Shown here: piece after piece, positions 38 through 43,910 of the stretch | Position numbering within the stretch: position 1 is the first letter of the stretch | How the letters are laid out: the number at the start of each line of letters is the position of its first letter | DNA from: Candidatus Zixiibacteriota bacterium | GTDB lineage: Bacteria; Zixibacteria; MSB-5A5; GN15; FEB-12 | Direction of reading: 5' to 3' | NCBI GenBank assembly: GCA_029860345.1 | Contig: JAOUBJ010000015.1 | Span: forward strand, 1 to 64,000 | Length of the DNA: 64,000 nucleotides | Notes under the pieces: generated by a model | Told to the model about the DNA's origin: nothing | Databases searched by the model: none | Seen by the model: only the letters and a program-made list of their open reading frames with translations | Translations under genes and position numbers: made by a program

Positions 38-374
38 GGGCATATCCTCCTTGGAAAGCTGTTAAGTGGATATGCCCTATTTCTTTGTCAAAAATCCACC
101 AATTTACACAAGAAAATTTACGCTAACACGAAAGATTGTCCCCTTTTGCCGGGCAGGAAGACCCGCAATCAGTACCTTCACATCCTGCTAGATTTGAGAG
201 TGGAGTTGGGCGACCCCGCCCGACGCCTGCTCTCGTGGCTAACAGCTGTCAGGCGAGTCGCCGTACAGGCCCTGGAATTTGCAGCCATTTAGATTTTGCC
301 AATCTTACTATGGAGCCTTATACTTCCCGCGTTATCGAAACGATAGAGATGAACCAGAGCAACGGAACGCAACC
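38..374. other. Divergent intergenic region with a shared upstream element and a double-hairpin repeat
   Basis: This stretch separates the minus-strand gene at the left edge from the plus-strand membrane/TPR gene. At 98-130 it carries an AT-rich element that closely matches 56157-56189, upstream of the glycosyltransferase-like gene. At 204-270 lies a copy of the family A double-hairpin repeat. A TTG at 279 opens the same frame as the downstream gene but falls inside or right after that repeat and has no good ribosome binding site, so I treat this region as non-coding. Confidence 0.5.
204..270 (+). repeat. Family A dispersed double-hairpin repeat, copy 1
   Basis: The left half, GTTGGGCGACCCCGCCCGAC, folds as an 8-bp stem (GTTGGGCG with CGCCCGAC, one G-U pair) and a four-base loop. 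After about 25 bases the right half, GTCAGGCGAGTCGCC, begins a second palindrome whose ideal form is TCAGGCGAGTCGCCTGA. The same two-part unit recurs at 22002-22076, 46221-46295 and 56022-56095, and the left half alone at 12393-12413. Confidence 0.75.
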
Positions 375-2426: not shown

Positions 2427-2733
2427 TAAGCTCCTGGTGATGAATTGATATTCGCCCCAAACAAGGTATGAGGCGGCCACACGCCGCGCCCCGTGAAAAT
2501 GTCAACCAGCTGTCACTCCGGGCCTTGACCCGGAGTCCATATTCTCTTGGGCCGTCATGCGATCCCAGCTGTGTTGGCAGGTCTGAAGACAGACCTGCCC
2601 TACAAAACTATTCCACCGACCCCTTGCGTACACCAGGAATCCCACCCGACGCAAAGCCTCTGGGTGGGGTACCAAAGGTGGTGCATGTCATACTGAGCGC
2701 AGTCGAAGTATGTGCCCACCACAACCTCACCTG
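2427..2733. other. Convergent intergenic region packed with dispersed repeats
   Basis: Three short repeats follow one another between the convergent genes. A family D fragment (CCCCAAACAAGGTATGAG) lies at 2456-2490. A family B hairpin (CCACCC...GGGTGG around GACGCAAAGCCTCT) lies at 2640-2673. A family E fragment (TACTGAGCGCAGTCGAAGTA) lies at about 2692-2712. No gene is supported. Confidence 0.6.
2640..2673 (+). repeat. Family B hairpin repeat, copy 1
   Basis: CCACCC and GGGTGG form a perfect 6-bp stem closing a 14-base loop that reads GACGCAAAGCCTCT, followed by GGTACC. Near-identical copies occur at 18119-18155 and 18229-18270. All three lie between genes. Confidence 0.7.
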
Positions 2734-5700
2734 TTACTTCACCAACATCATCTTTCTGGTCTGGCCAAATCGAGCGCTCTCCAATCGGTAGAAATAGACT
2801 CCGCTTGAAACCGCCCGGCCCAGATCATCTCGACCGCTCCACGACACCGTATGATGACCGGCCACTACGTATTCATCGACCAGCGTTTTCACACGCTGCC
2901 CGAGAACATTGTAAACATAAAGTGTCACTTGACCTGAGGTAGGTAACCCAAACGTGAGACTGGTATTCGGGTTGAAGGGGTTGGGGTAGTTGCTGCCCAG
3001 ATAATAGTCCTCCGGCAAGGTTGGGTCGGGTGAAATCTGAACTCGACTGAGGCTAAGCTGGTACTGTCCGGGAGCGAGTTCGATGGTCTGATCATCTTCA
3101 ACAGTCAGATCAAACTCACTGCCTGGCTGAATAACCGATAGATGGTAACCGCTCGACTTCAGGTCGGTCACGCCGGTCACATCTATACTGACACCTGCCG
3201 AACCGACCAACTGAAGCGTCCACTCCTGATGGTCTGATGGTTGTCTGATATCCTGGATATAACGGCCGAACTGATGCTCCATTTCCGTCAACAACACCAT
3301 CGTTCCCTCAGTGGCGACAAAGGCCGGGGGTGGTGCCGGCAGATCATACTGTGCGTCAAAGCCGTTTTGCGCCTCCTCGGCCATGCCAAAAGTGACACTG
3401 GAATGTTCGCTGGCCAGACGGATGGTGAGCAGGCCGTCGCCCCCGGCCGCCTTGGCCGGTAGGTCTGGATGATCGTTGTCCGCGATAGCTACCGGCCCGG
3501 TATTGGTTACACAGAGCTTTAGCCCCTCGACCAGCGCGGCGAACCACTGACCATGGCCGCTATGCAGCATCGATGTCATGAAGTAGTGGTTGCCGAAATA
3601 GCCGTAGAACACGGGGGAGACCCAACCGGCCGCGGCTGCCTCCATGATGGGCAAGCGGAAACCGCCCGAGTCGACCATGGCGGCAAAGGCGTCCACGTTG
3701 TGTCGATACGGATTGCCGAGCAGGTTCCATCCCAGCCTGAGATCAAGGCAGACAATGCTGTCGTGAGGCTGGATCGGGTCGCCCTCATAGTCGACCGTTG
3801 TAGCCTGGGGGAGAAGCAGCCAATAAGCGGGGCCGTGCCCAACAAATTCGTTCGGAGAAAAATACGCGCCGTCCCACCCGTACAACTGATAGAAAGGCGC
3901 ATCATCCAGAAAGACTGCATCCGGCGATCCATCACGCACGACCAACGGCGATGAAACCAGGTTCCAGCCGCCGGTGTAGTTTTGGTAGGCTACTTCGAAA
4001 TCGCAAGCCCTGATAATAAAACGGTCCTCACCACCGTCGGACATGAATCCATAACCATGCCGGACGAAATCATCTGACAAGAGTTGTCCTGCCTCGTTGA
4101 ACAGAGAGATAGTGTAATTGGTCGGGTCGTGTGCGGCGATCGGGTCCAGATGAACCTCGGTGGGATGGTTCGTCTGCACCACCATCTCCCACTCCTTACA
4201 CTCCTGCTGCAAGAGGGAGCGGAAGTCGGTCGCGAACTCATCCTGAAACTGTCCCCACTCCGGATGGGGGAAGAAGACGCGCACGTAATCGCCCGGCGGC
4301 GCAGGTGCCTTGAACTGATCGAGCAGTGGATCGAAACCGTCGTGGGCAGCCGAATCAACTCCAAAGTGGGCGGTGATATCCTCAAGCCCGCTGCCGGTGT
4401 GGGCATTGATACCGACATCGAAGCCTACGTGTGTGATACCGGGCTGTACCATCAACTGGACAGGCACGACCACAGGGGAGTTCTGGGCGGTCGGTGACTC
4501 GAAGAACAGTCTGCCACCATAAGGACCAATAGGCAATCCGTCGGCTTCCACCATTACCACCACTGAGTCAGGTGTGCTTCCGCTTCCCGCATGGGGGATA
4601 AGCCACGATACATCCGAGACTACCTGGTAGTCGTCCGATACCGGTCCGGCCGAGTGAATACTCATGGTCTGCGGCGGTGGGTCGGGCTCTCCCCGGACTT
4701 TGAAGAACTCAAGTTGTGAAGGCGCCACCACCAGATCGGAAGGCGGCCGGTTGGCGATGATGAAACAGTGCGGTCCATCCCAGGCGGGGAAGACAAGGCC
4801 ACCGCCGCTGCTACTTTGCCAGCCCCACAATCCGGAAGGCGGGAACCAGGATGAATCAATGCAGATGACCCCGTCCTCATACACCGTATCGATCGGTCCT
4901 ATTTGCAGGGTCAGGGCGATATCGTCGAAGCCGGGCGGAAGACCGCTGGCAAAAATCTTCACGGCACCAAATCCGACGGTGTCGGCGCCCATGCCGTTGT
5001 TGCTGAAATCGGAAAAGAACACACCGAGATCAAACTGCTCCATACCCAGACTACCGGTAGTGTCAAGTCTGGTCGACGTCCAGTGAGCGCCGGTGGTTGA
5101 TCGAACCCTGAAACCATTGACCAGACCGTTGTAACTGTTCGCATCTCCCGTGATGCGCAGGAAAAACGTGATCTCTTCATTGGTCAGTATCTTGTTGTGG
5201 TTGAACAGTCCGTCGACATGATCCAGTGTCACCGCCGGTCCGGTTGGCAGTACGCGCAATACAACCGTTATTGGCACCGGTGAGTTGTCGACTTGCGGCG
5301 CGTGGATCGTCATCATCCCATAATGAGTTCCGGCCGGGAGGATATAGGGATCGACCGATACAAGTACGCGGCCCGGGGTAGACCCGCTCATCGGGGTGGC
5401 GCCCAGCCACGGGACCGAATCAATCAGCACCGAGTAATTGAGTGGATCGCCGTTGGATGCGACCATGATCGAATCCCAGAGCAACAGACTCTGCCCGACA
5501 TGTGTTTCGAATTCGAGAATCTGCGGCGATACGATAAGACTGTCACCGGTGATCTCCCTTTGAATATCAAAGCAGTGCGGCCCGTCCCAGGCGGGGAAAA
5601 CGTCGATACCACCCGACGCCGCCCATTTCCAAACGCCGGACGGCGGATAATAGGCAGAGTCAAGACAGATTGTTTTCCCGGCGTGGATCGGGTCGATGGG

Positions 5701-6111
5701 TCCGATGGTGATGGTAAGGGCGACATCATCGAAACCGGCCGGCATTCCTGTGGAGAAAAAGCGCAGCGCGCCCAGGCCGACAGTGTCGGCGCCTTGTCCG
5801 TTGGCTGAGAACTTGGGCAGGAAAACGCCGCCGTCAAACTGCGTTTTTCCAAGCGTGCCGGTAGTATCGTGATAGACAGATGACCAGGTGGCGCCATTTG
5901 GCGAGAATACCTGGAAGCCGTTGGCGATGCCGTCGAAACTGGTGTCGGTGGGGTTGGATATCCTGATGTGGAATACGACAGCCCGCCCGGTGCCCAGAGT
6001 CGAACTACCGGCCAAGCCATCAACATGGTCGAGGCTGATCGACTGAGCGAACGTCTGAACGGTCAGAAGCAGTATCAGTGCGAATGCATACGACAGAGAT
6101 TTGAATCTCAT
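2734..6111 (-). CDS. Large secreted protein: two LDHVDGL modules, BACON-like repeats and a T9SS-type C-terminal sorting domain
   Basis: 1125 residues with a clear signal peptide (about 1-23, ending TVQTFAQS). Residues 27-182 and about 297-455 are two copies of a roughly 160-residue module that opens with LDHVDGL and closes with PAWDGPHCF. It recurs at the N-terminus of the adjacent TSP3 protein. Each copy is followed by a roughly 100-residue beta-sandwich segment resembling BACON/Ig-like domains (SWLIPHAGSGSTPDSVVVMV, then PVVVPVQLMV). The centre is of unknown fold. The C-terminus is a FlgD-like T9SS type A sorting domain (YYLGSNYPNPFNPNTS, then YNVLGQRVKTLVD, SSGVYFYRL, ending MMLVK), suggesting outer-membrane export by the Por/T9SS route and surface attachment or release. 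The start has GGAGG five bases upstream of the ATG. No enzymatic motif was seen. Confidence 0.85.
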   Translation of the reverse strand: MRFKSLSYAFALILLLTVQTFAQSISLDHVDGLAGSSTLGTGRAVVFHIRISNPTDTSFDGIANGFQVFSPNGATWSSVYHDTTGTLGKTQFDGGVFLPKFSANGQGADTVGLGALRFFSTGMPAGFDDVALTITIGPIDPIHAGKTICLDSAYYPPSGVWKWAASGGIDVFPAWDGPHCFDIQREITGDSLIVSPQILEFETHVGQSLLLWDSIMVASNGDPLNYSVLIDSVPWLGATPMSGSTPGRVLVSVDPYILPAGTHYGMMTIHAPQVDNSPVPITVVLRVLPTGPAVTLDHVDGLFNHNKILTNEEITFFLRITGDANSYNGLVNGFRVRSTTGAHWTSTRLDTTGSLGMEQFDLGVFFSDFSNNGMGADTVGFGAVKIFASGLPPGFDDIALTLQIGPIDTVYEDGVICIDSSWFPPSGLWGWQSSSGGGLVFPAWDGPHCFIIANRPPSDLVVAPSQLEFFKVRGEPDPPPQTMSIHSAGPVSDDYQVVSDVSWLIPHAGSGSTPDSVVVMVEADGLPIGPYGGRLFFESPTAQNSPVVVPVQLMVQPGITHVGFDVGINAHTGSGLEDITAHFGVDSAAHDGFDPLLDQFKAPAPPGDYVRVFFPHPEWGQFQDEFATDFRSLLQQECKEWEMVVQTNHPTEVHLDPIAAHDPTNYTISLFNEAGQLLSDDFVRHGYGFMSDGGEDRFIIRACDFEVAYQNYTGGWNLVSSPLVVRDGSPDAVFLDDAPFYQLYGWDGAYFSPNEFVGHGPAYWLLLPQATTVDYEGDPIQPHDSIVCLDLRLGWNLLGNPYRHNVDAFAAMVDSGGFRLPIMEAAAAGWVSPVFYGYFGNHYFMTSMLHSGHGQWFAALVEGLKLCVTNTGPVAIADNDHPDLPAKAAGGDGLLTIRLASEHSSVTFGMAEEAQNGFDAQYDLPAPPPAFVATEGTMVLLTEMEHQFGRYIQDIRQPSDHQEWTLQLVGSAGVSIDVTGVTDLKSSGYHLSVIQPGSEFDLTVEDDQTIELAPGQYQLSLSRVQISPDPTLPEDYYLGSNYPNPFNPNTSLTFGLPTSGQVTLYVYNVLGQRVKTLVDEYVVAGHHTVSWSGRDDLGRAVSSGVYFYRLESARFGQTRKMMLVK

Positions 6112-31960: not shown

Positions 31961-32911
31961 TCAATCTGATTTCGATGATTCCGGCTTACTATCCGCGCGG
32001 TGCGGAGTTTTGCGTCGCGGCTTCGGCAGGTACTTCTCGTCTTTCCAGGCTTCATACAGGGGCGCCCACATGGCGCCGAAGGTGGCGGCGAACACATATT
32101 CTTCCAACGGTGCGTGTCCGATCCAGCAGCCGGATAGATTCTCCATTGACCAGTGGTCGTAGAAATTAGGGTAGAAGAGTCCCACCACCTCAAGCACCAC
32201 AGCATAGATTACAGTGAAAGTAATGGCGCCGCCGAGCACCTGCCATTTGATCTTGGGCCGACGCCACCAGATGAAGGCGCCAACCGCGACACAAGTGAAT
32301 CCGGCATCATAAATGATGTTAAGGCCGAATTGCGACGTGGTTCCGAACATCGCTAAGAAAACTAACAACAGGAGCATGTTCTCGTTTCGGACTTGAGCTT
32401 TGGTTGGGCAGATGCGACTGTAACTAACTGTAGCGGTGTTGAATCGCTTCTGCTCTTTGAGTTGCAATCTTAAGGCCAGATATATCCATTTGACGGCCTT
32501 CCATAACCAGTAATCGATGGCTCTTAAGGCCTTGTTGATCTTTGGCAACTCTGGGGCAATCCCCGCTATCCCTCCGACTGCAAAACAGAACACGAAGCTT
32601 TCGAAATCCCATCGGCAATACTTGAGGATCGACGGCGGGTCCCAATACTCCGGGACGAATAGTGGCTCGGTGATACCGAGAGCACAGCAGGCCCAACTGG
32701 CCCACCAGAATTCATGGTGGTTTTTCTTCGCCTTTCTTGCCTTCTTTGAATCCTCCGGTTCTTCCGGGCCTTCGGGTTCTATCAAGCTTTCAGGATACCT
32801 GGAAACTTTCCGTTTCAGCAAGATCAATACAGCTATCCAAAAGAACATCAGGATGCAGCACCCAAATAGATACGCATTCATCTCGGGTTTCCACTGAATA
32901 CCTGCAAGCAT
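31961..32911 (-). CDS. Polytopic membrane protein resembling a lycopene cyclase domain protein
   Basis: 316 residues, with about seven to eight membrane segments by eye, interrupted by a charged loop (residues about 38-65, rich in E, K and P). Near the C-terminus GHAPLEEYVFAATFGAMW resembles the P-[LI]-E-E-x-x-F motif of the small CrtY/CarR-type lycopene cyclase domain. A second repeat, as in the heterodimeric bacterial enzymes, is not obvious. No other carotenoid gene is in the window, so the activity is unproven. GAGGAGG lies nine bases before the ATG. Co-transcribed with the DUF1028 gene. Confidence 0.6.
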   Translation of the reverse strand: MLAGIQWKPEMNAYLFGCCILMFFWIAVLILLKRKVSRYPESLIEPEGPEEPEDSKKARKAKKNHHEFWWASWACCALGITEPLFVPEYWDPPSILKYCRWDFESFVFCFAVGGIAGIAPELPKINKALRAIDYWLWKAVKWIYLALRLQLKEQKRFNTATVSYSRICPTKAQVRNENMLLLLVFLAMFGTTSQFGLNIIYDAGFTCVAVGAFIWWRRPKIKWQVLGGAITFTVIYAVVLEVVGLFYPNFYDHWSMENLSGCWIGHAPLEEYVFAATFGAMWAPLYEAWKDEKYLPKPRRKTPHRADSKPESSKSD

Positions 32912-33243: not shown

Positions 33244-33672
33244 ATGAATTGGACAATCCCCGAACCCGCTGTCTCACGTAAGGCGCTCATACTGTCGGCC
33301 GGTTTATTCTGGGTGATTGGCGGTGTTGTGCTGGTCATTCGCGCCGGGCTGATATTCAGGGGCGGTGTAGATTTGGTGTGGCCGGCCGCAATCGGGGTGG
33401 TGCTTGGCTCGCTTAAGCATCGGATTGTGTTTTCCAAAGTGGTCGCCGTCAATCTCCAACGCATTCGTGAATTATCCCCCCACAAAGACAAGCTGTGCCT
33501 GTTCGCATTCCAGTCGGTTGAGTCATACCTGTTTGTGATTCTGATGGTTGGCTTGGCCCATGGCCTTCGGTATGTCGGGTTGCCGCCCGCAGTCCTGGCG
33601 ACAATCTACCTGGCCATCGGCGCCGGCCTGCTTTTGTCATCGGTGGGCTACTTCAAATCGACTGATTGCTGA
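33244..33672 (+). CDS. Small membrane protein of unknown function
   Basis: 142 residues with four likely membrane helices: ALILSAGLFWVIGGVVLVI, VWPAAIGVVLGSL, YLFVILMVGLAHGLRYVGL and AVLATIYLAIGAGLLLSSV. A cytoplasmic loop (LKHRIVFSKVVAVNLQRIRE) joins helices 2 and 3. AAGGAAG lies five bases before the ATG. The family is not recognised. It precedes the heme operon by 317 bases in the same direction but is probably a separate transcript. Confidence 0.7.
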   Translation: MNWTIPEPAVSRKALILSAGLFWVIGGVVLVIRAGLIFRGGVDLVWPAAIGVVLGSLKHRIVFSKVVAVNLQRIRELSPHKDKLCLFAFQSVESYLFVILMVGLAHGLRYVGLPPAVLATIYLAIGAGLLLSSVGYFKSTDC

Positions 33673-33846: not shown

Positions 33847-33865
33847 AAGTCACGTAAGTGTCACG
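33847..33865 (+). promoter_or_regulatory. PhoB/OmpR-type direct repeat, upstream box of the heme operon
   Basis: GTCACG occurs at 33849-33854 and again at 33860-33865, exactly 11 bases apart (AGTCACGTAAGTGTCACG). PhoB-type response regulators bind tandem TGTCA motifs with this period. The first unit has AGTCA, the second TGTCA. Confidence 0.35.
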
Positions 33866-33903
33866 GGGACAATATTAGTTACTTTTTTCACAAAATATCT
33901 CAA

Positions 33904-33926
33904 TCTATGACAAACCGGTGACAAAC
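33904..33926 (-). promoter_or_regulatory. PhoB/OmpR-type direct repeat, promoter-proximal box of the heme operon
   Basis: On the minus strand TTGTCACCGGTTTGTCAT holds two TGTCA motifs exactly 11 bases apart, close to the classical pho-box layout. On the plus strand the same DNA reads GACAAAC at 33909-33915 and 33920-33926. It overlaps the candidate -35 and spacer, so binding would influence transcription directly. Confidence 0.4.
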
Positions 33927-33937
33927 TACACTATAGT
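33907..33937 (+). promoter_or_regulatory. Candidate promoter of the heme operon
   Basis: ATGACA (33907-33912) and TATAGT (33932-33937) are separated by 19 bases, longer than ideal for a sigma-70 promoter, which would fit activator-dependent transcription. It lies about 50 bases before hemA. Confidence 0.35.
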
Positions 33938-33989
33938 AGTTGTATTTTCCCACCGAAGTTAAGACAAAAGGAATGGACTTAGATAAGAT

Positions 33990-35264
33990 ATGAAGACAGA
34001 ATTCGGCATCCTCGGAACTTCAATCTGGCAACAGAACATGTCGCTCCTGGAGCGGTTGACCATAAACCGTGACGAGCGTGAGAGAATTCTACCTGAGTTG
34101 AAAACTCATCTGGGTGTGGATGAGTTGATATTCCTTTCGACCTGTAACCGCGTCGAGTTTATTTATGCTACCTCCTCAGAGGCCGGTTCCAGCCGGATTC
34201 TCCACAAGTTGATCGACTACTTCTGCTGCAACGGCAACAAGCTGAATTTCTTCCCCAACGATTTCTACCACTACTCAGGTCGCGAAGCCATCACGCATCT
34301 GTTCCGCACCGTGTCTTCGCTTGAGTCTTTGGTTGTTGGTGAGACCCAGATAACCGGTCAGTTCAAACAGGCGTTCCAGGATGCCACCGAGTCCGGAATC
34401 GCCGGTTCGTCGTTGGATGCTCTGGCTCGCCAGGCTCTGGTCGTGGCCAAGCAGGTCAAGCGCGACACATCGATTGGCGTCGGTGCCGTGTCGATGGCCT
34501 CGTTGGCCTCAACGCAGTTGGAGCCTATCCTGAACAAGAAGTCCGTTCCGGTGATCGCGCTGGTCGGTTCCGGCGAGATGACCTCCAAAGTAGCCCGGTA
34601 CATCCAGGAGATGGGCGAGGCCGAATTGTTGTTTGTAAACCGTACTCTGGCCAAAGCTGAGCAGTTGGCCGAGCAGTTCGGTGGCCGCGCGGTGTCACTT
34701 GCAGACTTCCAGCGGCAGCCTGAGCCGGTCGCTGCTATCGTTTCAGCAACCGCCGCTATCGAGCCGGTCTTTGACGGTGACTTCCTGAACCGCCTAAAGA
34801 CGAACGATCAGCCGATAATTTGTGTCGACCTGGCTATCCCACGTGACTTTGCCGACGTTTTCGGTCACTCCGACAACGTGACGCTGGTCGACATCCACGC
34901 CCTTAAGTCGCACGTTCAGGGTAATCTTCGTCAGAAGTTTGTCGAAGCGGGCAAAGCTGATGAAATCGTGCGCGCCGCGGTCAACAAGTTCATGTCCGAC
35001 CGTATCGAAGTGTCACTCAAGCCGATTTTTCATGATAGTTATCAGGCGTCCATTGAACTGGCTCGTGAAGCCATCGATGATTTGTTCGCCAACCGCAAGA
35101 GCAGTCTGCCGGCCGAGGAAAAGGAGCGCGTCATGCGCCTGGTCACTCGTCTGGTGGGACACTCAGCATTTCAGCCGGCGCGTTTGCTGGCCGATCGCCT
35201 CGCTCAGTCCCGCACTGAGTTGAATCTGAGCGACGCGCCTGTCATGCGTAAGGCCGCAGTGTGA
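33990..35264 (+). CDS. hemA: Glutamyl-tRNA reductase
   Basis: 424 residues. Reduces glutamate attached to tRNA-Glu to glutamate-1-semialdehyde with NADPH, the first committed step of the C5 heme pathway, in the cytoplasm. The catalytic cysteine is Cys52 in the signature FLSTCNRVEF. VVGETQITGQFKQAF is the conserved family motif of the catalytic domain, and VIALVGSGEMTSKVA is the start of the NADPH-binding Rossmann fold (about 188). The C-terminal dimerisation helix region follows about 320. First gene of the operon; its TGA overlaps the GTG start of hemC (GTGA). The nearest ribosome binding site (AAAAGG, 33966-33971) is rather far from the ATG, so translation initiation may be weak. Full-length for the family. 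Confidence 0.97.
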   Translation: MKTEFGILGTSIWQQNMSLLERLTINRDERERILPELKTHLGVDELIFLSTCNRVEFIYATSSEAGSSRILHKLIDYFCCNGNKLNFFPNDFYHYSGREAITHLFRTVSSLESLVVGETQITGQFKQAFQDATESGIAGSSLDALARQALVVAKQVKRDTSIGVGAVSMASLASTQLEPILNKKSVPVIALVGSGEMTSKVARYIQEMGEAELLFVNRTLAKAEQLAEQFGGRAVSLADFQRQPEPVAAIVSATAAIEPVFDGDFLNRLKTNDQPIICVDLAIPRDFADVFGHSDNVTLVDIHALKSHVQGNLRQKFVEAGKADEIVRAAVNKFMSDRIEVSLKPIFHDSYQASIELAREAIDDLFANRKSSLPAEEKERVMRLVTRLVGHSAFQPARLLADRLAQSRTELNLSDAPVMRKAAV

Positions 35265-36175
35265 CCCCCACAAAACTGATCATAGGTTCCCGCGGTTCCG
35301 ATCTGGCTTTGTATCAAGCCAACTTTATCCGTGACACATTGGTGCGTGATCGTAGCTGTGAGGTCGAAATCAAGATTATCAAGACCACCGGCGACAAGAT
35401 CGACTACGTGTCGTTCGACAAAATGGAGGGGAAAGGATTCTTCACCAAAGAACTCGAAGAAGCGCTGACGGCCAAAGAGATCGATCTGGCTGTGCACTCA
35501 TTGAAGGATTTGATGACCTCACAACCGGAGGGATTGAAACTCGGCGCCGTTGGCTATCGTGCCGACCGCCGGGAGATGCTTCTGATAAACAAAGCATCAG
35601 TGTCGGGTGAAAACGTCATCCCGGTCAAAGAGGGCGGCCTGATCGGTACCAGTTCCAACCGACGCAAGTGCCAGATTGCGCACCTCAACCCTAACGTGAT
35701 TATGAAGGACCTGCGCGGCAATGTCCCGACTCGAATTAGGAAATTGCGTGAGGCGATGTACGACGCTATCATAATCGCCGCTGCCGGGGTTACCCGGTTG
35801 GAGTTGGACGTTTCCGACCTCGAAGTTGTCCTGCTGGATGCCGACCGATTTTTGCCGGCGCCGGCACAGGGGATCTTGGGGATTCAGATTCGTTCCGGTG
35901 ATGACAGGGTCGAACAGGTAGTCTCGAAATTGGGCTCAGATCGGGATGCTGTTGCTGCCTCACTGGAACGCGGTCTGCTCGCACGATTCGATTCCGGCTG
36001 CTCTTTGCCGCTGGGTGTAGACTCCGATATGTCAGGTTCAGAGATGCGCCTGACGGCTGTTTTGGGTGTGGGCGAGGCCGATAGTTGGTCCGGTCTCAAA
36101 CGGGTCGAGATTGTCGGTACCGACGTTGATCGAATCGTCGACGATGCATTCGATGCACTGAACAGTGGGGAGTAG
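35261..36175 (+). CDS. hemC: Porphobilinogen deaminase (hydroxymethylbilane synthase)
   Basis: 304 residues. Condenses four porphobilinogen units into linear hydroxymethylbilane on a covalently attached dipyrromethane primer. Visible features: N-terminal IIGSRGSDLALYQA, the active-site Asp in LAVHSLKDLM, the arginine-rich substrate site IGTSSNRRKCQI and DLRGNVPTRIRKL, and the cofactor-attachment Cys247 in FDSGCSLPLGV. The start is GTG, overlapping the hemA stop by four bases, so the pair is translationally coupled. hemD follows after two bases. Typical family length is about 300-315 residues. Confidence 0.97.
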   Translation: MTPTKLIIGSRGSDLALYQANFIRDTLVRDRSCEVEIKIIKTTGDKIDYVSFDKMEGKGFFTKELEEALTAKEIDLAVHSLKDLMTSQPEGLKLGAVGYRADRREMLLINKASVSGENVIPVKEGGLIGTSSNRRKCQIAHLNPNVIMKDLRGNVPTRIRKLREAMYDAIIIAAAGVTRLELDVSDLEVVLLDADRFLPAPAQGILGIQIRSGDDRVEQVVSKLGSDRDAVAASLERGLLARFDSGCSLPLGVDSDMSGSEMRLTAVLGVGEADSWSGLKRVEIVGTDVDRIVDDAFDALNSGE

Positions 36176-36177
36176 CC

Positions 36178-36915
36178 ATGCGGTTGGGCGTTACGCGTGC
36201 TGTCGAGCAGTTGTCAGTACTTTCATCACGCGCATCTATTCAGGGGATTGAGATAGTCGCGTTGCCGATGACCCATCACCAGCCATTGCCGTTTGAATGG
36301 CCTGCCGGTGTCTCTCCCAACCAAGTCGACTGGCTATTCTTCACGAGCGCCAACGGCGTGCGAGGTTTCTTTGAACAGCTTGATGGTTCACCCTTCGACT
36401 CCGCTCAGGGTGAGGTTGGGGGAGCTCAGGGTGAGGTGGCTGGTGCCCGACCCAAGATCGCCGCGGTTGGTGACAAAACAACTCAGGCGCTGAAAGGGGC
36501 CGGGTGGACTGTCAGCTTTCAACCGACCGTGGCGAACGGTGAAGCGCTGTTTCGCGAGTTCGTTGGCTCGCATGTGGATGCCAAAGGAATGGTTTTTTAT
36601 GCACGCGCCAAACGGGTGAATTTCGATCCTGATGAGTTGTTCGCAAAAACCGGGTTCGACTACTACCCGATTATCTGCTACGAGACTAAAACCGCCGAGG
36701 TAAACCAACAGGTCGTTGCCATGCTTGAGGACAAAGATTATATTCTGTTCACTGCGCCATCGGCGGTGCGCGCATATGACGAGAAGTTTGGTCCGCCGAA
36801 AGCGATGCTTATTGCGATTGGACCGACTACAGCATCGGCTATGACCAACTGTGGATGGACAAAGTTCATGACTATGAAACAGCCCGATGTCGATCGGGTG
36901 CTGGAGTATCTGTGA
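36178..36915 (+). CDS. hemD: Uroporphyrinogen-III synthase, with an in-frame repeat insertion
   Basis: 245 residues. Closes hydroxymethylbilane into the asymmetric uroporphyrinogen III ring. HemD proteins are poorly conserved, but the pattern is clear: a two-lobed protein with DWLFFTSANGVRGFFEQL, KIAAVGDKTTQALKGAGW, YYPIICYETK and ILFTAPSAVRAYDEKFG, in an operon with the other hem genes. Residues 71-90 (SPFDSAQGEVGGAQGEVAGA) are an insertion between the first lobe's helix and the KIAAVGD strand. The corresponding DNA (36389-36443) matches the dispersed family E repeat found between genes elsewhere in the window. The reading frame stays open, so the enzyme may remain functional. The stop overlaps the hemB start (TGATG). 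Confidence 0.92.
   Translation: MRLGVTRAVEQLSVLSSRASIQGIEIVALPMTHHQPLPFEWPAGVSPNQVDWLFFTSANGVRGFFEQLDGSPFDSAQGEVGGAQGEVAGARPKIAAVGDKTTQALKGAGWTVSFQPTVANGEALFREFVGSHVDAKGMVFYARAKRVNFDPDELFAKTGFDYYPIICYETKTAEVNQQVVAMLEDKDYILFTAPSAVRAYDEKFGPPKAMLIAIGPTTASAMTNCGWTKFMTMKQPDVDRVLEYL
36389..36443 (+). repeat. Family E repeat inserted in frame in hemD
   Basis: CCCTTCGACTCCGCTCAGGG followed by TGAGG, then a second partial copy GCTCAGGGTGAGGT. The core matches intergenic CCCTTCGACTCCGCTCCGGG at 12470. It encodes residues 71-90 of HemD. Confidence 0.7.
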
Positions 36916-37895
36916 TGGAACCGACAAATCGTCCCCGCCGACTGAGGCGTACCAAACTCATTCGGGAGTTGGTCGGTCAGACAACGGTTGCCACCGAGCG
37001 TCTGATCCAGCCGTACTTTGTTACCGACGGCGTGGGTGTAAAAGTTGAGATCGGCGGTATGCCGGGGATATATCGTGAATCGGTTGACTCCCTGATGGAG
37101 TCTATCGAGAGTGACTACAAGCTCGGCCTCGACAAAGTGATGCTTTTCGGTGTGACCGACCGTAAAGATGCCAAAGCGTCGAGCGCTGCCGATGACAAGA
37201 ACCCGGTGGTGGCGGCCGTCAAAAAACTCAAAGACAAGTTCGGTGACGACCTGTTCGTCTCCGCCGACGTTTGCCTCTGCGCCTATACCGACACAGGGCA
37301 TTGCGGTGTTACCATCGACGGTGAAATCGACAACGACTCCTCCCTGCCGATTCTGGCCAAGATGGCCCTGGTGCTGGCCCAGGCCGGGTGCGATTGTGTG
37401 GCGCCTTCGGACATGATGGATGGACGTGTCGGCGCTATTCGCGAAACGCTCGAAGCCCACGATCTGGCCAACACGATCATAATGGCCTACACGGCCAAGT
37501 ATGCATCGTCCTATTACGGACCTTTCCGCGAGGCGGCCGGTTCGGCTCCGGGCAAGGGCGACCGTAAGGGATACCAGATGGACTTCCGCAATCGGACCGA
37601 AGCGTTGCGTGAATTGATGCTCGATGAAGAAGAAGGAGCCGACATCGTAATGGTCAAACCGGCGCTGGCCTACCTGGACATAATCGCAGACTTTCAGCGC
37701 AATACCGAGCTGCCGGTGGCGGCCTACAACGTGTCCGGCGAATATGCCACGGTAAAACTGATGGTTCAAGCCGGACAAGCGGATGAAAAATCGCTCGTAT
37801 TTGAAAACCTCACCGCCATCACGCGGGCCGGGGCGTCAATCATTCTAACATATCACCTGAGGGACATACTAAAAAATGAATGGCGGCAACCCTAA
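36915..37895 (+). CDS. hemB: Delta-aminolevulinic acid dehydratase (porphobilinogen synthase)
   Basis: 326 residues. Condenses two 5-aminolevulinate molecules to porphobilinogen. The two active-site lysines are Lys195 (AYTAKYASSYYGPFREA) and Lys248 (VMVKPALAYLD). Cys120, Cys122 and Cys130 in SADVCLCAYTDTGHCG form the catalytic zinc site, so this is a zinc-type enzyme, not the Asp-rich magnesium type. RNRTEALRE lies in the lid region. The start at 36915 (MEPTNRPRRLRR) overlaps the hemD stop by one base; a longer frame begins inside hemD and is unlikely. hemL begins 20 bases before the end of hemB. Confidence 0.97.
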   Translation: MEPTNRPRRLRRTKLIRELVGQTTVATERLIQPYFVTDGVGVKVEIGGMPGIYRESVDSLMESIESDYKLGLDKVMLFGVTDRKDAKASSAADDKNPVVAAVKKLKDKFGDDLFVSADVCLCAYTDTGHCGVTIDGEIDNDSSLPILAKMALVLAQAGCDCVAPSDMMDGRVGAIRETLEAHDLANTIIMAYTAKYASSYYGPFREAAGSAPGKGDRKGYQMDFRNRTEALRELMLDEEEGADIVMVKPALAYLDIIADFQRNTELPVAAYNVSGEYATVKLMVQAGQADEKSLVFENLTAITRAGASIILTYHLRDILKNEWRQP

Positions 37896-39183
37896 CACCG
37901 ACAAGTCTCAGCGTTTACTCAAGCTGGCCGAAGAAGTAACCCCCGGTGGCGTACACTCACCGGTTCGCGCCTTTGGCGCGGTCGGCGGATGTCCACGCTT
38001 CATCGAGCGCGGCGAAGGACCCTACCTGTTCGACGTCGACGGCAACAAGTACCTCGACTTCTGTTGTTCCTGGGGTCCCTTGATCCTCGGACATGCCGAC
38101 TCCGATGTCGTCGCAGCCGTCAAGGAACAGGTGGATCGCGGCATGACCTTCGGCGCCTCCACCGAGCTTGAGTACAAGCTGGCTCAGTTTATCGTAAGTC
38201 GTATCGAGGTTGTAGACAAGATTCGCTTTGTGTCTTCCGGGACCGAAGCTGTCATGTCGGCGATCAGACTGGCCCGTGGTTTCACCAAGCGCGACCTGAT
38301 TCTTAAATTCGAAGGTTGCTACCACGGCCATTCCGACCATCTGCTGGTCAAAGCCGGCTCGGGGTTGGTGACATTCGGCCAGACAGCGTCGGCGGGCGTA
38401 CCCGATGACATCACCAAAAACACCGTGGTATTACCCTTGGACGACGAAGAGGCGTTGCAGAAGTTCTTCGCCGAATATGGCGACAAACTGGCCGCCGTTA
38501 TCATCGAAGGTGTCCCGGCCAACAACGGACTGCTGATTCAACGTCACGACTACATGCGCCTGTTGCGCACCCTCACCGAACAACACGGCGTTGTGTTGAT
38601 TCTGGACGAAGTGATAACCGGATTTCGCATCGGCTTCGGTGGCGCCACCGAGTATTATGGTATCCGTCCCGACCTGGTAACCTATGGCAAGATCATCGGC
38701 GGCGGCATGCCGGTCGGCGCTTTTGGGGGAAGGGCGGATATAATGGACCATGTCGCGCCACTGGGCGCCGTCTATCAGGCGGGTACGTTATCCGGTAATC
38801 CGGTGGCCATGACAGCCGGTCTGGCTACGCTTGAAAAACTCGCCGCCGACAATATTTACGCTGAGATGGAGAACCGCAACCGACGGTTCGTCTCAGAGAT
38901 TACGACGCGCCTGGCTTCGAGCAGTGTGAACATCGCCGGAGTGGCGTCGATTTTCTGGATACTCTTCCAGCGTGATATTCCGCGTTCGGCAGCTGCAATC
39001 GACTCCGACGGCATCGCGCACTACAACCGGATGCACACGCGCATGCTAAACGCCGGCATCTACCTGCCGCCTTCAGGATACGAGGTCTGTTTCCTATCGA
39101 CGGTGCACACCGATGAAGTTCTGAACGAAGCGGCCGAGACAATCGCCCGTATAATCGGCGAGGAGGCACACCAATGGGCATAA
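37876..39183 (+). CDS. hemL: Glutamate-1-semialdehyde 2,1-aminomutase
   Basis: 435 residues, the standard length. A PLP-dependent enzyme that converts glutamate-1-semialdehyde to 5-aminolevulinate, forming a channelling pair with HemA. PLP-binding Lys272 lies in VTYGKIIGGGMPVGAFGGR, the cofactor-ring Asp244 in LILDEVITGFR, the phosphate-binding loop in VSSGTEAVMSAIRLAR, and YHGHSDHLLVKAGSG is specific to the GSA subgroup. The ATG at 37876 overlaps hemB by 20 bases, preceded by GAGGGAC. The 3' end overlaps hemE by 10 bases. Confidence 0.97.
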   Translation: MNGGNPNTDKSQRLLKLAEEVTPGGVHSPVRAFGAVGGCPRFIERGEGPYLFDVDGNKYLDFCCSWGPLILGHADSDVVAAVKEQVDRGMTFGASTELEYKLAQFIVSRIEVVDKIRFVSSGTEAVMSAIRLARGFTKRDLILKFEGCYHGHSDHLLVKAGSGLVTFGQTASAGVPDDITKNTVVLPLDDEEALQKFFAEYGDKLAAVIIEGVPANNGLLIQRHDYMRLLRTLTEQHGVVLILDEVITGFRIGFGGATEYYGIRPDLVTYGKIIGGGMPVGAFGGRADIMDHVAPLGAVYQAGTLSGNPVAMTAGLATLEKLAADNIYAEMENRNRRFVSEITTRLASSSVNIAGVASIFWILFQRDIPRSAAAIDSDGIAHYNRMHTRMLNAGIYLPPSGYEVCFLSTVHTDEVLNEAAETIARIIGEEAHQWA

Positions 39184-40199
39184 GCGACAGCTTGTTCATA
39201 AAAGCGTGCTACGGCCGGAACGATGGTGTTATTCCGCTGTGGATCATGCGTCAGGCCGGGAGGTTTCTGCCTGAGTATCGGGCCGTGCGGGAGAAAGCGA
39301 CCTTTGTCGAAATGTGCCGATCACCTGAGTTGATTGCCGAAGTGGTTCGGCAACCAATCGCACGGTTTGGTTTCGATGCTGCAATTCTGTTTTCGGATAT
39401 TCTCACAATGTTGACGCCCATGGGGCTGCCGTTTGAGTTTCCCGAAGGCGGTCCGCGCGTGTCGAATCCCATTCGCACGCCGGAAGACGTTGATCGGCTG
39501 GTCGATGTAAACGCGGAGAAGGACCTCGATTTTGTCCTTGAAGGTATCCGTGAAATAAAGAAGATCCTACCCGACACGCCGTTGATCGGATTTGCCGGGT
39601 CGCCGTTCACGCTGGCTTGTTATATGATCGAAGGTATGGGTTCCAAAAGTTTTGATAAGCCGCGACGGTTCCTGCACGAGTTCCCGGAAGCTGGTGATCG
39701 ATTGATTAGCTTCCTGGCCGACAACGTAGGTCGCTACCTCAAGGCGCAAATTGCGGCCGGTGCGGAAACAGTGCAACTGTTCGACAGTTGGGGGGGGATG
39801 CTCTCGCGCGAGGCGTATCGACGCTGGTCAGCCTCTCCGGCCCAGCGCATATTTGAGACCGCCAAGACCGAAGGTGTACCGCGTATATTCTTCGTGAACA
39901 ACGTTACGCCATATTTGGACTTGGTGAGTGACATCGATTGCGAGGTGGTCGGGGTGGACTTTCGCGCCGATCTGGCCCATTGTGCTGCTTCGTTACCGGG
40001 TAAATCAGTTCAGGGTAATCTGGACCCATCGGTGTTGTTCGGCACTCGCGAGCAGGTAGTGACACAGACAAAGCGCATTCTGAATAGCCTTGACGACCAC
40101 AGCCGGTTGATTTTTAATCTCGGCCATGGCATTCAGCCACAGACGCCGCTTCAATCGGTCGAAGCCGTTGTGGAGACCGTCCACAGTTACAGAGGTTGA
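39174..40199 (+). CDS. hemE: Uroporphyrinogen decarboxylase
   Basis: 341 residues. Removes four acetate carboxyls from uroporphyrinogen III to give coproporphyrinogen III. The N-terminal signature IPLWIMRQAGRFLPEYR (substrate-binding arginines) is intact. Other conserved parts are AAILFSDILTML (catalytic Asp), GFAGSPFTLACYMIEG, and the C-terminal FNLGHGIQPQTP. A TIM-barrel enzyme. It overlaps hemL by ten bases and its TGA overlaps the hemN start. Confidence 0.97.
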   Translation: MGISDSLFIKACYGRNDGVIPLWIMRQAGRFLPEYRAVREKATFVEMCRSPELIAEVVRQPIARFGFDAAILFSDILTMLTPMGLPFEFPEGGPRVSNPIRTPEDVDRLVDVNAEKDLDFVLEGIREIKKILPDTPLIGFAGSPFTLACYMIEGMGSKSFDKPRRFLHEFPEAGDRLISFLADNVGRYLKAQIAAGAETVQLFDSWGGMLSREAYRRWSASPAQRIFETAKTEGVPRIFFVNNVTPYLDLVSDIDCEVVGVDFRADLAHCAASLPGKSVQGNLDPSVLFGTREQVVTQTKRILNSLDDHSRLIFNLGHGIQPQTPLQSVEAVVETVHSYRG

Positions 40200-41599
40200 T
40201 GATGAATAGCGATTCTACCGCCACCACCATACCCATAGACCTCCTGCGCAAATACGACCGACCGGGCCCGCGTTATACCAGCTATCCGACGGCGCCGATC
40301 TGGAGTGAGGATGTCGGTGGCGATCGTTATGCCGAGGCGCTCAAAAAGGCGTCGGCAGTTGCGGACGTACCATTGTCGCTCTATTGTCACATCCCCTTTT
40401 GCCGGAAACGATGTTTCTATTGCGGTTGCAACACCTGTATCGTCAAAGGGGACACTTCAGTCGATGCCTACACCGAGGAATTGTGCAAGGAGATCGTGTG
40501 GACGGCTGAGCGGCTGCAACCGCGCCGGAAGGTTCGGCAGCTGCATTTTGGCGGCGGTACGCCGACCTATGTCGGTGTAGAGCGTCTGGGACAGATTCTC
40601 GATTGCATGGAACAGTCGTTTGAATTCGATGAAACGTGTGAACGGTCGATGGAGATTGATCCGCGACTGACCACGCCTGAGCAACTTGAGTTTTTGGCCC
40701 AACGTGGTTTCAATCGCATCTCGCTTGGTGTGCAGGATTTCGATCCCGATGTCCAGGTGTCGATAGGCAGGATACAGCCGCATGAGCAAGTGACGACCGT
40801 TCTCGGGCATTGTCGTCGGTTGGGATTCAAAGGGATCAACTTTGACCTCATCTACGGCCTGCCGTTGCAGACGGTGGGTAGTTTCTCAAGGACGCTTGAA
40901 CGGGTGATTGAACTGCGCCCGGACCGGCTGGCCGTATACTCGTTTGCCTTCCTGCCGACGGTAAAAGCGCACCAGTCGAAAATCGATCAGGGTGATCTGC
41001 CCACCACCGAAGTGAAGTACCAGTTGTTCGCCAAGGCTATCGAGATGTTCACCGGTGCCGGTTATAAACAGATCGGCATGGATCATTTCGCATTGCCCGA
41101 TGATGAACTGTCGCTGGCCCAGGCCGACGGAAGGTTGTATCGAAATTTCATGGGTTATTCGATTCAGGCGGCGCCGGAAATGATCGGCATCGGCATGTCG
41201 TCGATCGGATACGTGGACGATGGGTTCTTTCAGAATGTGTCCAAGCTAAAAGAGTATGGCCGACGCATCGATGACTCGAACTGTGCCGTGTATCGGGGGA
41301 TGAAACTCTCCGACGACGATTTGATTCGCCAGTATCTTATCACGTCCCTCATGTGCAATTTCCGACTCGACATTGCTCCGTTTGAAGAGCGCTTTGGAAT
41401 CAGGTACAACGACTATTTTTCCGAAGAGCGAACGCGCCTGAGCGGTTTTGTCGAGGATGCTCTGCTTGAGGTATCCTCCGACCGGTTGGTTGTGACTCAG
41501 GTTGGTCGCGCTTTTGTGCGCAATATTGCCATGACCTTCGATGCCTACCTGAAAGGGGATGCGCCGGGCAAGAAGGCGACCTATTCGAGAACCATTTAG
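40199..41599 (+). CDS. hemN: Oxygen-independent coproporphyrinogen III dehydrogenase
   Basis: 466 residues. A radical SAM enzyme that oxidatively decarboxylates two propionates of coproporphyrinogen III to vinyl groups, giving protoporphyrinogen IX. The cluster cysteines are C68, C72 and C75 in HIPFCRKRCFYCGCNTC, including the extra Cys typical of true HemN. The HemN-specific N-terminal motif YDRPGPRYTSYPTAP distinguishes it from HemW-type relatives. Other conserved motifs are HFGGGTPT and FNRISLGVQDFD, and a HemN C-terminal domain follows about residue 360. ATG codons at 40199 and 40202 are both possible; the second has better spacing from AGAGGT. hemH begins immediately after the stop. Confidence 0.97.
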   Translation: MMNSDSTATTIPIDLLRKYDRPGPRYTSYPTAPIWSEDVGGDRYAEALKKASAVADVPLSLYCHIPFCRKRCFYCGCNTCIVKGDTSVDAYTEELCKEIVWTAERLQPRRKVRQLHFGGGTPTYVGVERLGQILDCMEQSFEFDETCERSMEIDPRLTTPEQLEFLAQRGFNRISLGVQDFDPDVQVSIGRIQPHEQVTTVLGHCRRLGFKGINFDLIYGLPLQTVGSFSRTLERVIELRPDRLAVYSFAFLPTVKAHQSKIDQGDLPTTEVKYQLFAKAIEMFTGAGYKQIGMDHFALPDDELSLAQADGRLYRNFMGYSIQAAPEMIGIGMSSIGYVDDGFFQNVSKLKEYGRRIDDSNCAVYRGMKLSDDDLIRQYLITSLMCNFRLDIAPFEERFGIRYNDYFSEERTRLSGFVEDALLEVSSDRLVVTQVGRAFVRNIAMTFDAYLKGDAPGKKATYSRTI

Positions 41600-42556
41600 A
41601 TGGTCCAACAATCGGACAAACCCTGCGTTATTCTGCTGAGCATGGGAGGGCCTGAGACAACCGCTGATGTCCGTGAGTTTCTCTATAATATCTTTTGCGA
41701 TCGTAGTCTGATTCGATTACCCGGCGGGAGATTCTTCCAACGTTCGTTTGCCAGGTTGATTTCATCACTGCGTTGCTCAAAAGTCCAACGCCACTACGAC
41801 AGCATAGGTGGCGGGTCGCCGCTATTAATGTGGACGACCAAACAGGCCGCACAGATTGAACGACTGCTGAACCGTAAAGTGCCCGGTGTTCGTTGTCTTG
41901 TCGGCATGCGCTATTTTCATCCGCTGATAGAGGACACCCTGGCTGCAGCTCTCGAAGCTGGGTCCCGCAGGTTCATATTCCTGCCGATGTATCCACAGTT
42001 CAGCCGTGCCACAACCGGCTCATCGTTTCAAGTTGTTCGCCGGATTACCGAAGGCCGGGAGGTCGAATGTATATTCATCGATGACTTCCACGACGACCCC
42101 GGATACACACGGCTATTGAAAGAGCATATAGATGTGCATATATCCGCCGATGAAACGCTGCTCTTTTCGGCGCACAGTTTGCCGCAGAGATTCGTGGATG
42201 AAGGCGATCCCTATGTTCAGCAGGTACGGATCAGCGCCGGTTTGGCGGCAGGCGACCGCGAGTACGCTCTTTCATACCAGAGCCGGACCGGGCCGGTCAA
42301 ATGGGTGGGGCCGGATACGATTGTCGAGGCAAGACGACTGTTGAGTGATCCCCGGAAGAAGCTGTTTGTTGTGCCGTTGAGCTTTGTCTGCGACCATATC
42401 GAGACATTGTATGAGATCGACATCGACCTAAGACAGCAACTCGGTGCTGATGGATCGCGGATTCGCAGGATGCCGATGCTCAATGGTAACCCCGGGTTTT
42501 CTGAAGTGCTGGCCGACATTGTTACGCGAAAGGGAGGACTGCATGGCCTCGGTTGA
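41600..42556 (+). CDS. hemH: Ferrochelatase
   Basis: 318 residues. Inserts ferrous iron into the porphyrin to form protoheme. The catalytic His192 lies in LLFSAHSLPQRF and Glu268 in SFVCDHIETLYEID, the two residues that define the family. LLSMGGPETTADVREFLYN is the family N-terminus, SIGGGSPLL the porphyrin-wall segment, and RYFHPLIEDTL and MYPQFSRATTGSS are also conserved. The start codon directly follows the hemN stop. The last 14 bases overlap hemY. Confidence 0.97.
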   Translation: MVQQSDKPCVILLSMGGPETTADVREFLYNIFCDRSLIRLPGGRFFQRSFARLISSLRCSKVQRHYDSIGGGSPLLMWTTKQAAQIERLLNRKVPGVRCLVGMRYFHPLIEDTLAAALEAGSRRFIFLPMYPQFSRATTGSSFQVVRRITEGREVECIFIDDFHDDPGYTRLLKEHIDVHISADETLLFSAHSLPQRFVDEGDPYVQQVRISAGLAAGDREYALSYQSRTGPVKWVGPDTIVEARRLLSDPRKKLFVVPLSFVCDHIETLYEIDIDLRQQLGADGSRIRRMPMLNGNPGFSEVLADIVTRKGGLHGLG

Positions 42557-43910
42557 CGTTGTAATCGTGGGCGGAGGTATCTCCGGACTTGCGGCGCTGC
42601 ACTTTGTGCGGCAGTTGAAACCGAAGTTGAGTGTCAAACTGTTTGAGGCCGACTCACGACTGGGTGGAACCATTGGCACCGACCACGAAGACGGCTACAG
42701 TTTCGATTGGGGTCCCAATGGATTCCTGGATCGCGAACCGCTGACTCTGCGCTTCTGTGAGGAGTTGGGCTTGAACGATCAGTTGGAACGAGCCGGCGCC
42801 AATGTCAGCAACCGTTTTATCCTGCGCAAAGGAAAACTGCGCGCCGTTCCCATGTCTCCACCCGCTTTTGTGACATCCGATATCCTGGCCTTGTCCGGTA
42901 AGCTGCGAGTGATGATGGAACCTTTCGCGCGTGGACCGCGGGAAGATGATGAATCCATCTACGACTTCGTCCGCCGTCGAATCGGACGGCAAGCGGCCGA
43001 CTATCTCGTGCAGCCGATGGTGTCGGGTATCTATGGTGGATTGGCCGAACGCTTGTCGCTTGCGTCCTGCTTTCCCATTATGAAGCAGATGGAGGACGAA
43101 TACGGATCGCTGTTCAAGGCGATGATTGCAAAGTCAAAACAGGCCAAAGCTAAAGGCAAAAAGTCCGGCGGCCCCAGCGGTCCGGGTGGATGGTTGACCT
43201 CGTTCCGTGGTGGTTTGTTCAAACTCGTAGAGCGCAGTGAGCAACTCTACGCGGATGTCATCACGACCGGCAACGGTGTCGCTACTATTGCCGGTACTTC
43301 AGATGGCTATCAAGTAGTTCTTGAAGATAGCGCAGCACTGACGGCTCGGCAGGTCATTCTGGCCGTGCCGTCGTACCAGGCTGCTGCAATCGTCACCGAT
43401 CTGAATCAGCCGTTGGCAACGGCACTGCAAAAGATTCCCTACGCACCAATCTCGGTCGTCTGTCAGGGTTTCCGTGAAACGGATGTGCATCGCAAGCTGG
43501 ACGGTTTCGGTTTTTTGGTCCCGGCGCTGGAGCGCCGTCGGATTCTCGGCTCCATCTGGACATCTTCCATATTCACGGAGAGGGCGCCTGAGGGTCACGT
43601 GCAACTTCGCACGATGGTTGGCGGTGACGGTGATCATGAATCGATGCAGCTATCCGACGATGAGTTGGTTGGATGTGTCAACAAGGACCTGGATTCTATT
43701 CTGGGTCTATCCGGCGAGGCGGCCAAACTGAAACTATACCGCTGGCAACACGGCATCCCTCAGTTCAAAATCGGGCACGGCAAGATCATGACCGAGATCG
43801 AAACACAACTCAAGTCGCAGCCCGGCTTGCATCTCAGCGGCAACGCCTATTACGGCATCGGCCTCAACGACTGCGTTAAACAGTCCTATAGGGTAGTTGC
43901 ATCGATTTAG
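42543..43910 (+). CDS. hemY: HemY-type protoporphyrinogen/coproporphyrinogen oxidase
   Basis: 455 residues. A flavoprotein that removes six electrons from protoporphyrinogen IX (or, in monoderm bacteria, from coproporphyrinogen III). FAD-binding GxGxxG motif VVIVGGGISGLAALHF at the N-terminus; LFEADSRLGGTIGTDHEDGYSFDWGPNGF is the FAD/PPO region (two adjacent motifs); the C-terminal YYGIGLNDCVKQS is the family FAD motif. Because hemN is present just upstream, the natural substrate is probably protoporphyrinogen IX. HemY uses oxygen in known cases, whereas HemN is oxygen-independent, a mixed oxygen strategy. The ATG at 42543 was chosen (GGAGG close upstream); the longer frame starts inside hemH. 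Confidence 0.94.
   Translation: MASVDVVIVGGGISGLAALHFVRQLKPKLSVKLFEADSRLGGTIGTDHEDGYSFDWGPNGFLDREPLTLRFCEELGLNDQLERAGANVSNRFILRKGKLRAVPMSPPAFVTSDILALSGKLRVMMEPFARGPREDDESIYDFVRRRIGRQAADYLVQPMVSGIYGGLAERLSLASCFPIMKQMEDEYGSLFKAMIAKSKQAKAKGKKSGGPSGPGGWLTSFRGGLFKLVERSEQLYADVITTGNGVATIAGTSDGYQVVLEDSAALTARQVILAVPSYQAAAIVTDLNQPLATALQKIPYAPISVVCQGFRETDVHRKLDGFGFLVPALERRRILGSIWTSSIFTERAPEGHVQLRTMVGGDGDHESMQLSDDELVGCVNKDLDSILGLSGEAAKLKLYRWQHGIPQFKIGHGKIMTEIETQLKSQPGLHLSGNAYYGIGLNDCVKQSYRVVASI

Follow-up and report, generated by a model that had tools for sequence, protein, structure and literature searches.

The control of heme synthesis is poorly known outside well-studied groups. Two-component systems such as HssRS, HrrSA, ChrSA and ResDE act on heme handling or on redox-linked heme genes, and to our knowledge none of them is encoded between hemL and hemE of its own target operon. 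In Escherichia coli, PhoB is an OmpR-family regulator, and the Pho box to which it binds is made of TGTCA half-sites with an 11-base period.

HaeSR of Porphyromonas gingivalis is a hemin-responsive two-component system (PMC3764172, available text). For AlgZR of Pseudomonas aeruginosa, considered as a precedent, only the repression of hemN by AlgR is shown in the available part of the report (PMC4064291). A two-component system of Riemerella anatipestifer may be a further member of the family, with no heme link stated in the corresponding part of its description (PMC5399024). In Streptomyces avermitilis, Rex is described, in the text available, as binding rex-hemAC1DB at TTGTGCACGCGTTCACAA (PMC5355995). 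Judged by title and abstract, openly licensed papers yielded no description of a two-component system inside the hem operon of the phyla considered below, which is weak evidence of absence.

The locus analysed here lies in a 64-kb stretch of DNA (the window) from Candidatus Zixiibacteriota, a phylum of the FCB group. What it has in common with HssRS, HrrSA, ChrSA and ResDE is the two-component control, here predicted, of heme-related genes. With PhoB and the Pho box it shares an OmpR-family type of regulator and TGTCA half-sites at an 11-base period; in contrast to them, the conserved orientation found here puts TGACA on the coding strand. By kind, the predicted system belongs to the OmpR-family two-component systems and has a tandem operator, its likeness to PhoB being in the half-site only. 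HaeSR, compared by description, resembles this predicted system in that a kinase and a response regulator act on TonB-linked receptors, heme uptake and their own promoter, but the available text describes neither a tandem motif nor control of a hem operon (PMC3764172).

A tandem TGACA element upstream of the heme operon

An earlier note on this DNA had reported two TGTCA pentamers 11 bases apart on the minus strand between 33904 and 33926, a reading that inspection of the sequence confirmed. On the plus strand, TGACA occupies 33908-33912 and 33919-33923, with an 11-base period. GTGACA (33918-33923) is followed, 19 bases on, by TATTTT (Table 1). The window contains two copies of TGACA-N6-TGACA, against 0.17 expected; the second (2500-2515, minus strand) is found between the ends of the open reading frames 279-2426 (+) and 2734-6111 (-) and is probably due to chance. 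A scan for consensus sigma-70 promoters and terminators found nothing, and an RNA element, sought with Rfam at gathering thresholds, gave a tRNA as the sole match in the window.

A pair of GTCACG hexamers had also been noted. The two copies do lie 11 bases apart (33849-33854 and 33860-33865), but their membership in the element was not borne out. GTCAC-N6-GTCAC occurs once in the window versus 0.26 copies expected, and since at least one copy is present in 22 of 100 shuffles, the pair is by itself at chance level. Among 30 hemA upstream regions (see below) it appeared in the window's own only. The pair was rejected as part of the element on these two grounds.

Table 1. Coordinates of the features in the window.
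Feature	Position	Strand	Basis or remark
GTCACG pair	33849..33865	+	Judged outside the element; in 1/30 loci, chance-level in the window
Rex-like operator TAGTTACTTTTTTCACAA	33876..33893	.	Degenerate left arm; 11 of 14 consensus positions
Tandem operator (predicted) ATGACA-N5-GTGACAA	33907..33924	+	Exact pair in 28/30 relatives and 25/70 other-phyla hemA upstream regions
-10-like element TATTTT	33943..33948	+	19 bases 3' of second TGACA; best-scoring spacer in relatives
hemA (glutamyl-tRNA reductase), first gene of operon	33990..35264	+	ORF; orthologues in relatives and other phyla; name recognised from sequence
hemC	35261-36175	+	ORF; name recognised from sequence
hemD	36178-36915	+	ORF; name recognised from sequence
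hemB	36855-37895	+	ORF; name recognised from sequence
hemL	37876-39183	+	ORF; name recognised from sequence
hemE	39174-40199	+	ORF; name recognised from sequence
hemN-like radical SAM protein	40196-41599	+	Pfam PF04055 with PF06969
hemH (ferrochelatase)	41600-42556	+	Pfam PF00762
hemY-like oxidase	42444-43910	+	Pfam PF01593

The segment hemC-hemD-hemB-hemL-hemE (35261..40199) has the same order in relatives, as detected by tblastn. Two neighbouring frames were also observed. A 142-residue membrane-like protein without a Pfam match is encoded before hemA (33244-33672, +), and by eye a similar frame seems to precede hemA in another genome (L012, G021). A lycopene cyclase-like protein (PF18916) is encoded close to the hem operon (31961-32911, -).

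The tandem is conserved upstream of hemA in Zixibacteria

HemA was searched for in 61 genomes, of which 50 gave a match at E ≤ 0.001, and the best 30 loci, including that of the window, were scanned upstream. Exact TGACA-N6-TGACA was present in 28 of these 30 regions, as compared to 0.015 expected from first-order resampling; when spacings of 5 to 24 were tested, no period other than 11 was found in more than one region. HemA identity across the 30 loci falls from 100 to 35%, so the conservation of the site does not reflect general DNA similarity. One of the two remaining loci (L011) has TGACG-N6-TGACA, a single mismatch, at the same place. In the other (L022, genome G018) an exact tandem lies 1.3 kb upstream, ahead of the gene that precedes hemA, which from its sequence we take to encode ferrochelatase.

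All 28 exact sites carry TGACA on the coding strand of hemA, and the minus-strand reading first given is therefore the complement of the conserved orientation. When spacers of 0-27 bases were scored over the 28 sites, the mean match to TATAAT peaked at 19 bases (3.11 of 6), the same spacer that had been proposed for a weak -35 element in the window. Judged from conservation across genomes, the TGACA pair before the heme genes is genuine, a switch site of ancient conservation. The description of an OmpR/PhoB-type tandem site in the promoter of the heme operon is upheld by these results, and two-component control is therefore likely.

In L338 and L333 (G039 and G052), a second tandem facing the opposite way lies some 135 bases ahead of the one at hemA; in G039 it points at a DtxR/MntR-like gene, giving a divergent heme and metal control region. 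Five genomes of the window's genus (G001, G003-G006) contain no window-type HemA, regulator or strong tandem, and the entire heme circuit seems to have been lost, or never gained, in them.

A kinase/regulator pair is embedded in hem operons of several phyla

In six Zixibacteria (G052, G053, G045, G039, G042 and G050) the order is tandem, hemA, hemC, (hemD), hemB, hemL, kinase, regulator, hemE, hemN, hemH and hemY. G059 has a similar order, with hemC to hemL undetected, while in G040, G055 and G058 the pair stands beside the hem cluster. The operon of the window has the same hem gene order as the six, minus the embedded pair. A pair between hemL and hemE was also found in Bacteroidota, a gemmatimonadote, a planctomycete and a member of Thermoanaerobaculia. 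Overall, such a pair was seen within hem operons of other Zixibacteria, Bacteroidota, Gemmatimonadota, Planctomycetota and Acidobacteriota, in most cases between hemL and hemE.

In a broad scan of contigs for hemA, the best 80 loci comprised 10 from Zixibacteria (L201-L210, recognised by name or, for L201, by a match to G036) and 70 from other phyla, many of them from Mucilaginibacter. An exact tandem was present within 450 bases upstream of hemA in 25 of the 70, and both strands of the other-phyla loci (985,917 bases) contained no tandem besides these 25. The motif, whose absence upstream of orthologous hem operons would by the earlier note have refuted its reading, is present in relatives and in other phyla alike. 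Going by record titles, it was found in 23 of 25 Bacteroidota loci versus 2 of the 45 others, and the latter two, from a planctomycete and a gemmatimonadote, both have the embedded pair. Within the 70 loci, the tandem accompanied the pair in 16 of 18 cases, as against 9 of 52 loci lacking the pair (p = 9e-8, uncorrected for kinship). The exceptions with a pair are L240, with TGACC-N6-TGACA 57 bases upstream, and L267, with no tandem in the 330 bases available upstream and an altered recognition helix in its regulator. Nine other-phyla loci have the tandem and no pair nearby; the exact RT[VI]DNFI string (see below) was absent from the regulators of the five that were checked (L291, L292, L294, L295/L297 and L299).

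A candidate regulator and its co-occurrence with the sites

The genome to which the window belongs encodes two OmpR-type regulators. The candidate (G000:C32:7541-8230) has a histidine kinase gene directly upstream and a winged-helix domain (PF00486) scoring 85.8 bits against a curated cut-off of 26.2, and it reached the cut-off of none of the 25 NCBIfam families listed. This kinase/regulator pair is on contig C32, away from the hem operon, with no pair between hemL and hemE, and the region upstream of the kinase gene has no exact tandem, hence no sign of autoregulation in this genome. The second regulator (C1) is RprY-like (300 bits versus a cut-off of 370) and forms a very long branch of unreliable placement in the regulator tree. 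It lacks the helix described below and no hem linkage was seen for it; it was set aside as the binder.

All hem-linked regulators whose end was readable, except that of L267, have the common recognition helix RT[VI]DNFI, instead of which two PhoU-linked regulators that were read have RSVDVQI. Of the 85 regulators placed in one tree, the 48 that carry RT[VI]DNFI were split from the 20 rows of PhoU-containing stretches with a support of 100/99. The other 17 rows have neither label and some were placed among the 48; since they include regulators of tandem-bearing Bacteroidota, the exact string is no strict requirement. The four hem-linked kinases that were read, from three phyla, share a tryptophan pair in the first membrane segment, a concrete spot at which to seek the signal.

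A profile (R1) built from the 28 hemA sites was run on the 61 genomes, 47 of which have a regulator orthologue, defined as a match at E ≤ 1e-45. At E ≤ 0.05, profile matches were present in 45 of the 47 genomes with the regulator versus 4 of the 14 without it (p = 6e-7); at E ≤ 0.01 the figures were 38 of 47 and 3 of 14 (p = 8e-5), kinship inflating the significance of both. The association was also seen in the 25 genomes that lack this HemA, where sites occurred in 13 of 13 genomes with the regulator versus 2 of 12 without it (E ≤ 0.05), or in 8 of 13 versus 1 of 12 (E ≤ 0.01). G002, G008, G025 and G033 have sites and no detected regulator orthologue, while G017 and G059 have the regulator and a weaker profile score; G059 nonetheless has an exact tandem. 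In G037, G043 and G048, the tandem precedes the orthologue of the window genome's own kinase gene, followed by the orthologous regulator, hemE and hemN.

Other sites of the motif

A search of the window's own genome for the paired motif, a check advised earlier, showed no enrichment: there were 9 exact tandems versus 14 for a reversed-pattern control. Of the eight matches other than the hemA site, one is the copy at 2500 in the window; inspection of the other seven placed most of them within or between genes, in no clear promoter position. Since exact tandems are not enriched, the regulon of this genome may consist of the hem operon alone.

In the 61 genomes, 46 non-hemA matches to the profile were examined, covering E values up to about 0.05 plus four at 0.0508-0.065. 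A candidate gene lay downstream of 43 of them. TonB-dependent receptors follow 11 of the 46 sites, decaheme-type cytochromes 5, TetR regulators and kinases 3 each, and a 237-residue membrane protein 2. The remaining 22 sites, including the three that lack a candidate gene, represent single cases (including a ferrochelatase, a DtxR/MntR-like regulator and an Rrf2-like regulator) or probable chance matches. The two TonB receptors that were scanned gave their highest scores with models of heme, B12 and siderophore receptors, below the cut-offs. Several genomes without a HemA match (G010, G011, G035 and others; loci L089, L081 and L101) keep the regulator and have the tandem before TonB receptors; these organisms are possibly heme scavengers.

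A connection to HaeR was sought through HmuY: the tandem was found at none of the best 30 HmuY loci from 198 Bacteroidia genomes, P. gingivalis not being confirmed among them, and the link is unsupported.

A Rex-like operator beside the tandem

In the family of the window, TTTTTTCACAA stands just before the tandem. TCACAA was found beside the tandem in 14 loci, 13 from this family and one from another. Ten of the 14 have a TTGTG arm, matching in 4 or 5 of its 5 positions, exactly where the Rex palindrome TTGTGAAN4TTCACAA would put it; the remaining offsets from 6 to 23 gave none, save four at one offset and one at another. A palindrome score of at least 11 of 14 was reached at 16 of the 30 loci versus 3.3% of resampled sequences, although one of the 16 matches (L033) shares bases with the tandem and probably does not count as a site of its own. 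The window's copy scores 11 of 14, with 3 of 5 in the left arm.

Rex is encoded in the window's genome (G000:C6:169787; 66.6 bits versus a cut-off of 27) and, counting this one, in 56 of the 61 genomes, some of which have neither the tandem nor this HemA. As far as the available text goes, the likeness to S. avermitilis lies in a Rex or, here, Rex-like operator in the promoter of a hemA operon, and several relatives of the window have an 18-base palindrome very similar to the one described there (PMC5355995). The differences, within the same limits, are that here the Rex-like site adds to the tandem, rex is outside the operon and the window's copy is degenerate (PMC5355995). The arrangement suggests, for the window's family, an extra redox control through the Rex-like operator. 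In L113 (G019:C11), the tandem lies upstream of a TonB receptor gene, and rex comes a few hundred bases or less after that gene.

Discussion

We consider it likely that a heme-dedicated OmpR-family two-component system uses the tandem as its operator and would probably activate the hem operon, with a Rex overlay in the window's family. The response regulator encoded at G000:C32:7541-8230 would bind in head-to-tail order with one subunit on each TGACA. The bound protein would overlap the -35 position of a weak promoter, whose spacer is 19 bases, and would most likely activate transcription from hemA to hemY. Activation is proposed since an 11-base direct repeat over the -35 region, together with a long spacer, is in keeping with head-to-tail binding by an OmpR-type activator. 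The signal may be heme, iron or redox state, since the target set points there. Many relatives encode the kinase and the regulator within the hem operon that they would control, which suggests feedback; in the window's family the two genes would act from elsewhere, outside the operon. Because the Rex-like operator abuts the tandem in that family, NADH/NAD+ repression via Rex probably overlays the two-component control. The proposal in the earlier note that heme synthesis is under a two-component regulator is thus likely to be right, given the conserved tandem, the embedded pair and the co-occurrence of regulator and site.

The possible link to phosphate raised in that note fared differently. 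TGTCA tandems at 11 bases do resemble the E. coli Pho box, and the PhoB and PhoR models give scores for the regulator and the kinase, as is usual within the OmpR family. However, PhoU was found in 56 of the 61 genomes, and in 20 stretches of 11 to 14 kb around it, the own genome's included, the tandem was absent from all 20. Both OmpR-type regulators of the window's genome (175.7 and 157.4 bits) are below the NCBIfam PhoB cut-off of 296.2, the PhoU-linked regulators (pst-linked and PhoB-like) differ in their helix and group apart in the tree, and the sites found stand before hem, TonB, cytochrome and kinase genes. The link was rejected on the PhoU stretches and the lack of a PhoB by the NCBIfam cut-off; that a PhoB orthologue binds the tandem and ties heme synthesis to phosphate is scarcely credible.

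That a regulator of another family, or the second, RprY-like OmpR-type regulator, binds the tandem, the hem-linked pair being a mere neighbour, would account for the four genomes with sites and no detected regulator orthologue and for those tandem-bearing Bacteroidota that have no pair near hemA. We hold this to be unlikely, since the linkage, the co-occurrence and the tandems ahead of the kinase gene all indicate the linked regulator. It is very improbable that the tandem is a promoter feature only, a duplicated -35 for RNA polymerase, with Rex as the sole regulator. The second TGACA is indeed at a -35-like position and the Rex-like operator adjoins the tandem in the window's family, but the 28 sites, themselves chosen by that pattern, show no variation in either TGACA unit, the spacer measures 19 bases, and the genomes in which the TGACA pair stands before other genes are mainly those with the regulator; Rex, moreover, is present in genomes with neither tandem nor this HemA.

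Where the kinase and regulator lie between hemL and hemE and the tandem operator before hemA, the hem operon would carry its own sensor. The reading of heme-dedicated two-component control supplies a specific candidate regulator, an operator and an expected set of targets; these are conserved in several phyla, among them culturable Mucilaginibacter, in which direct tests are possible. On balance, we lean towards the view that this is an ancient, apparently undescribed two-component system wired into the hem operon of at least five phyla (Zixibacteria, Bacteroidota, Gemmatimonadota, Planctomycetota and Acidobacteriota), which in Zixibacteria lacking HemA would control acquisition. If so, Zixibacteria without this HemA would have kept the regulator, with its operator at TonB receptors and cytochromes, and a controller of heme synthesis would have become one of heme or iron acquisition.
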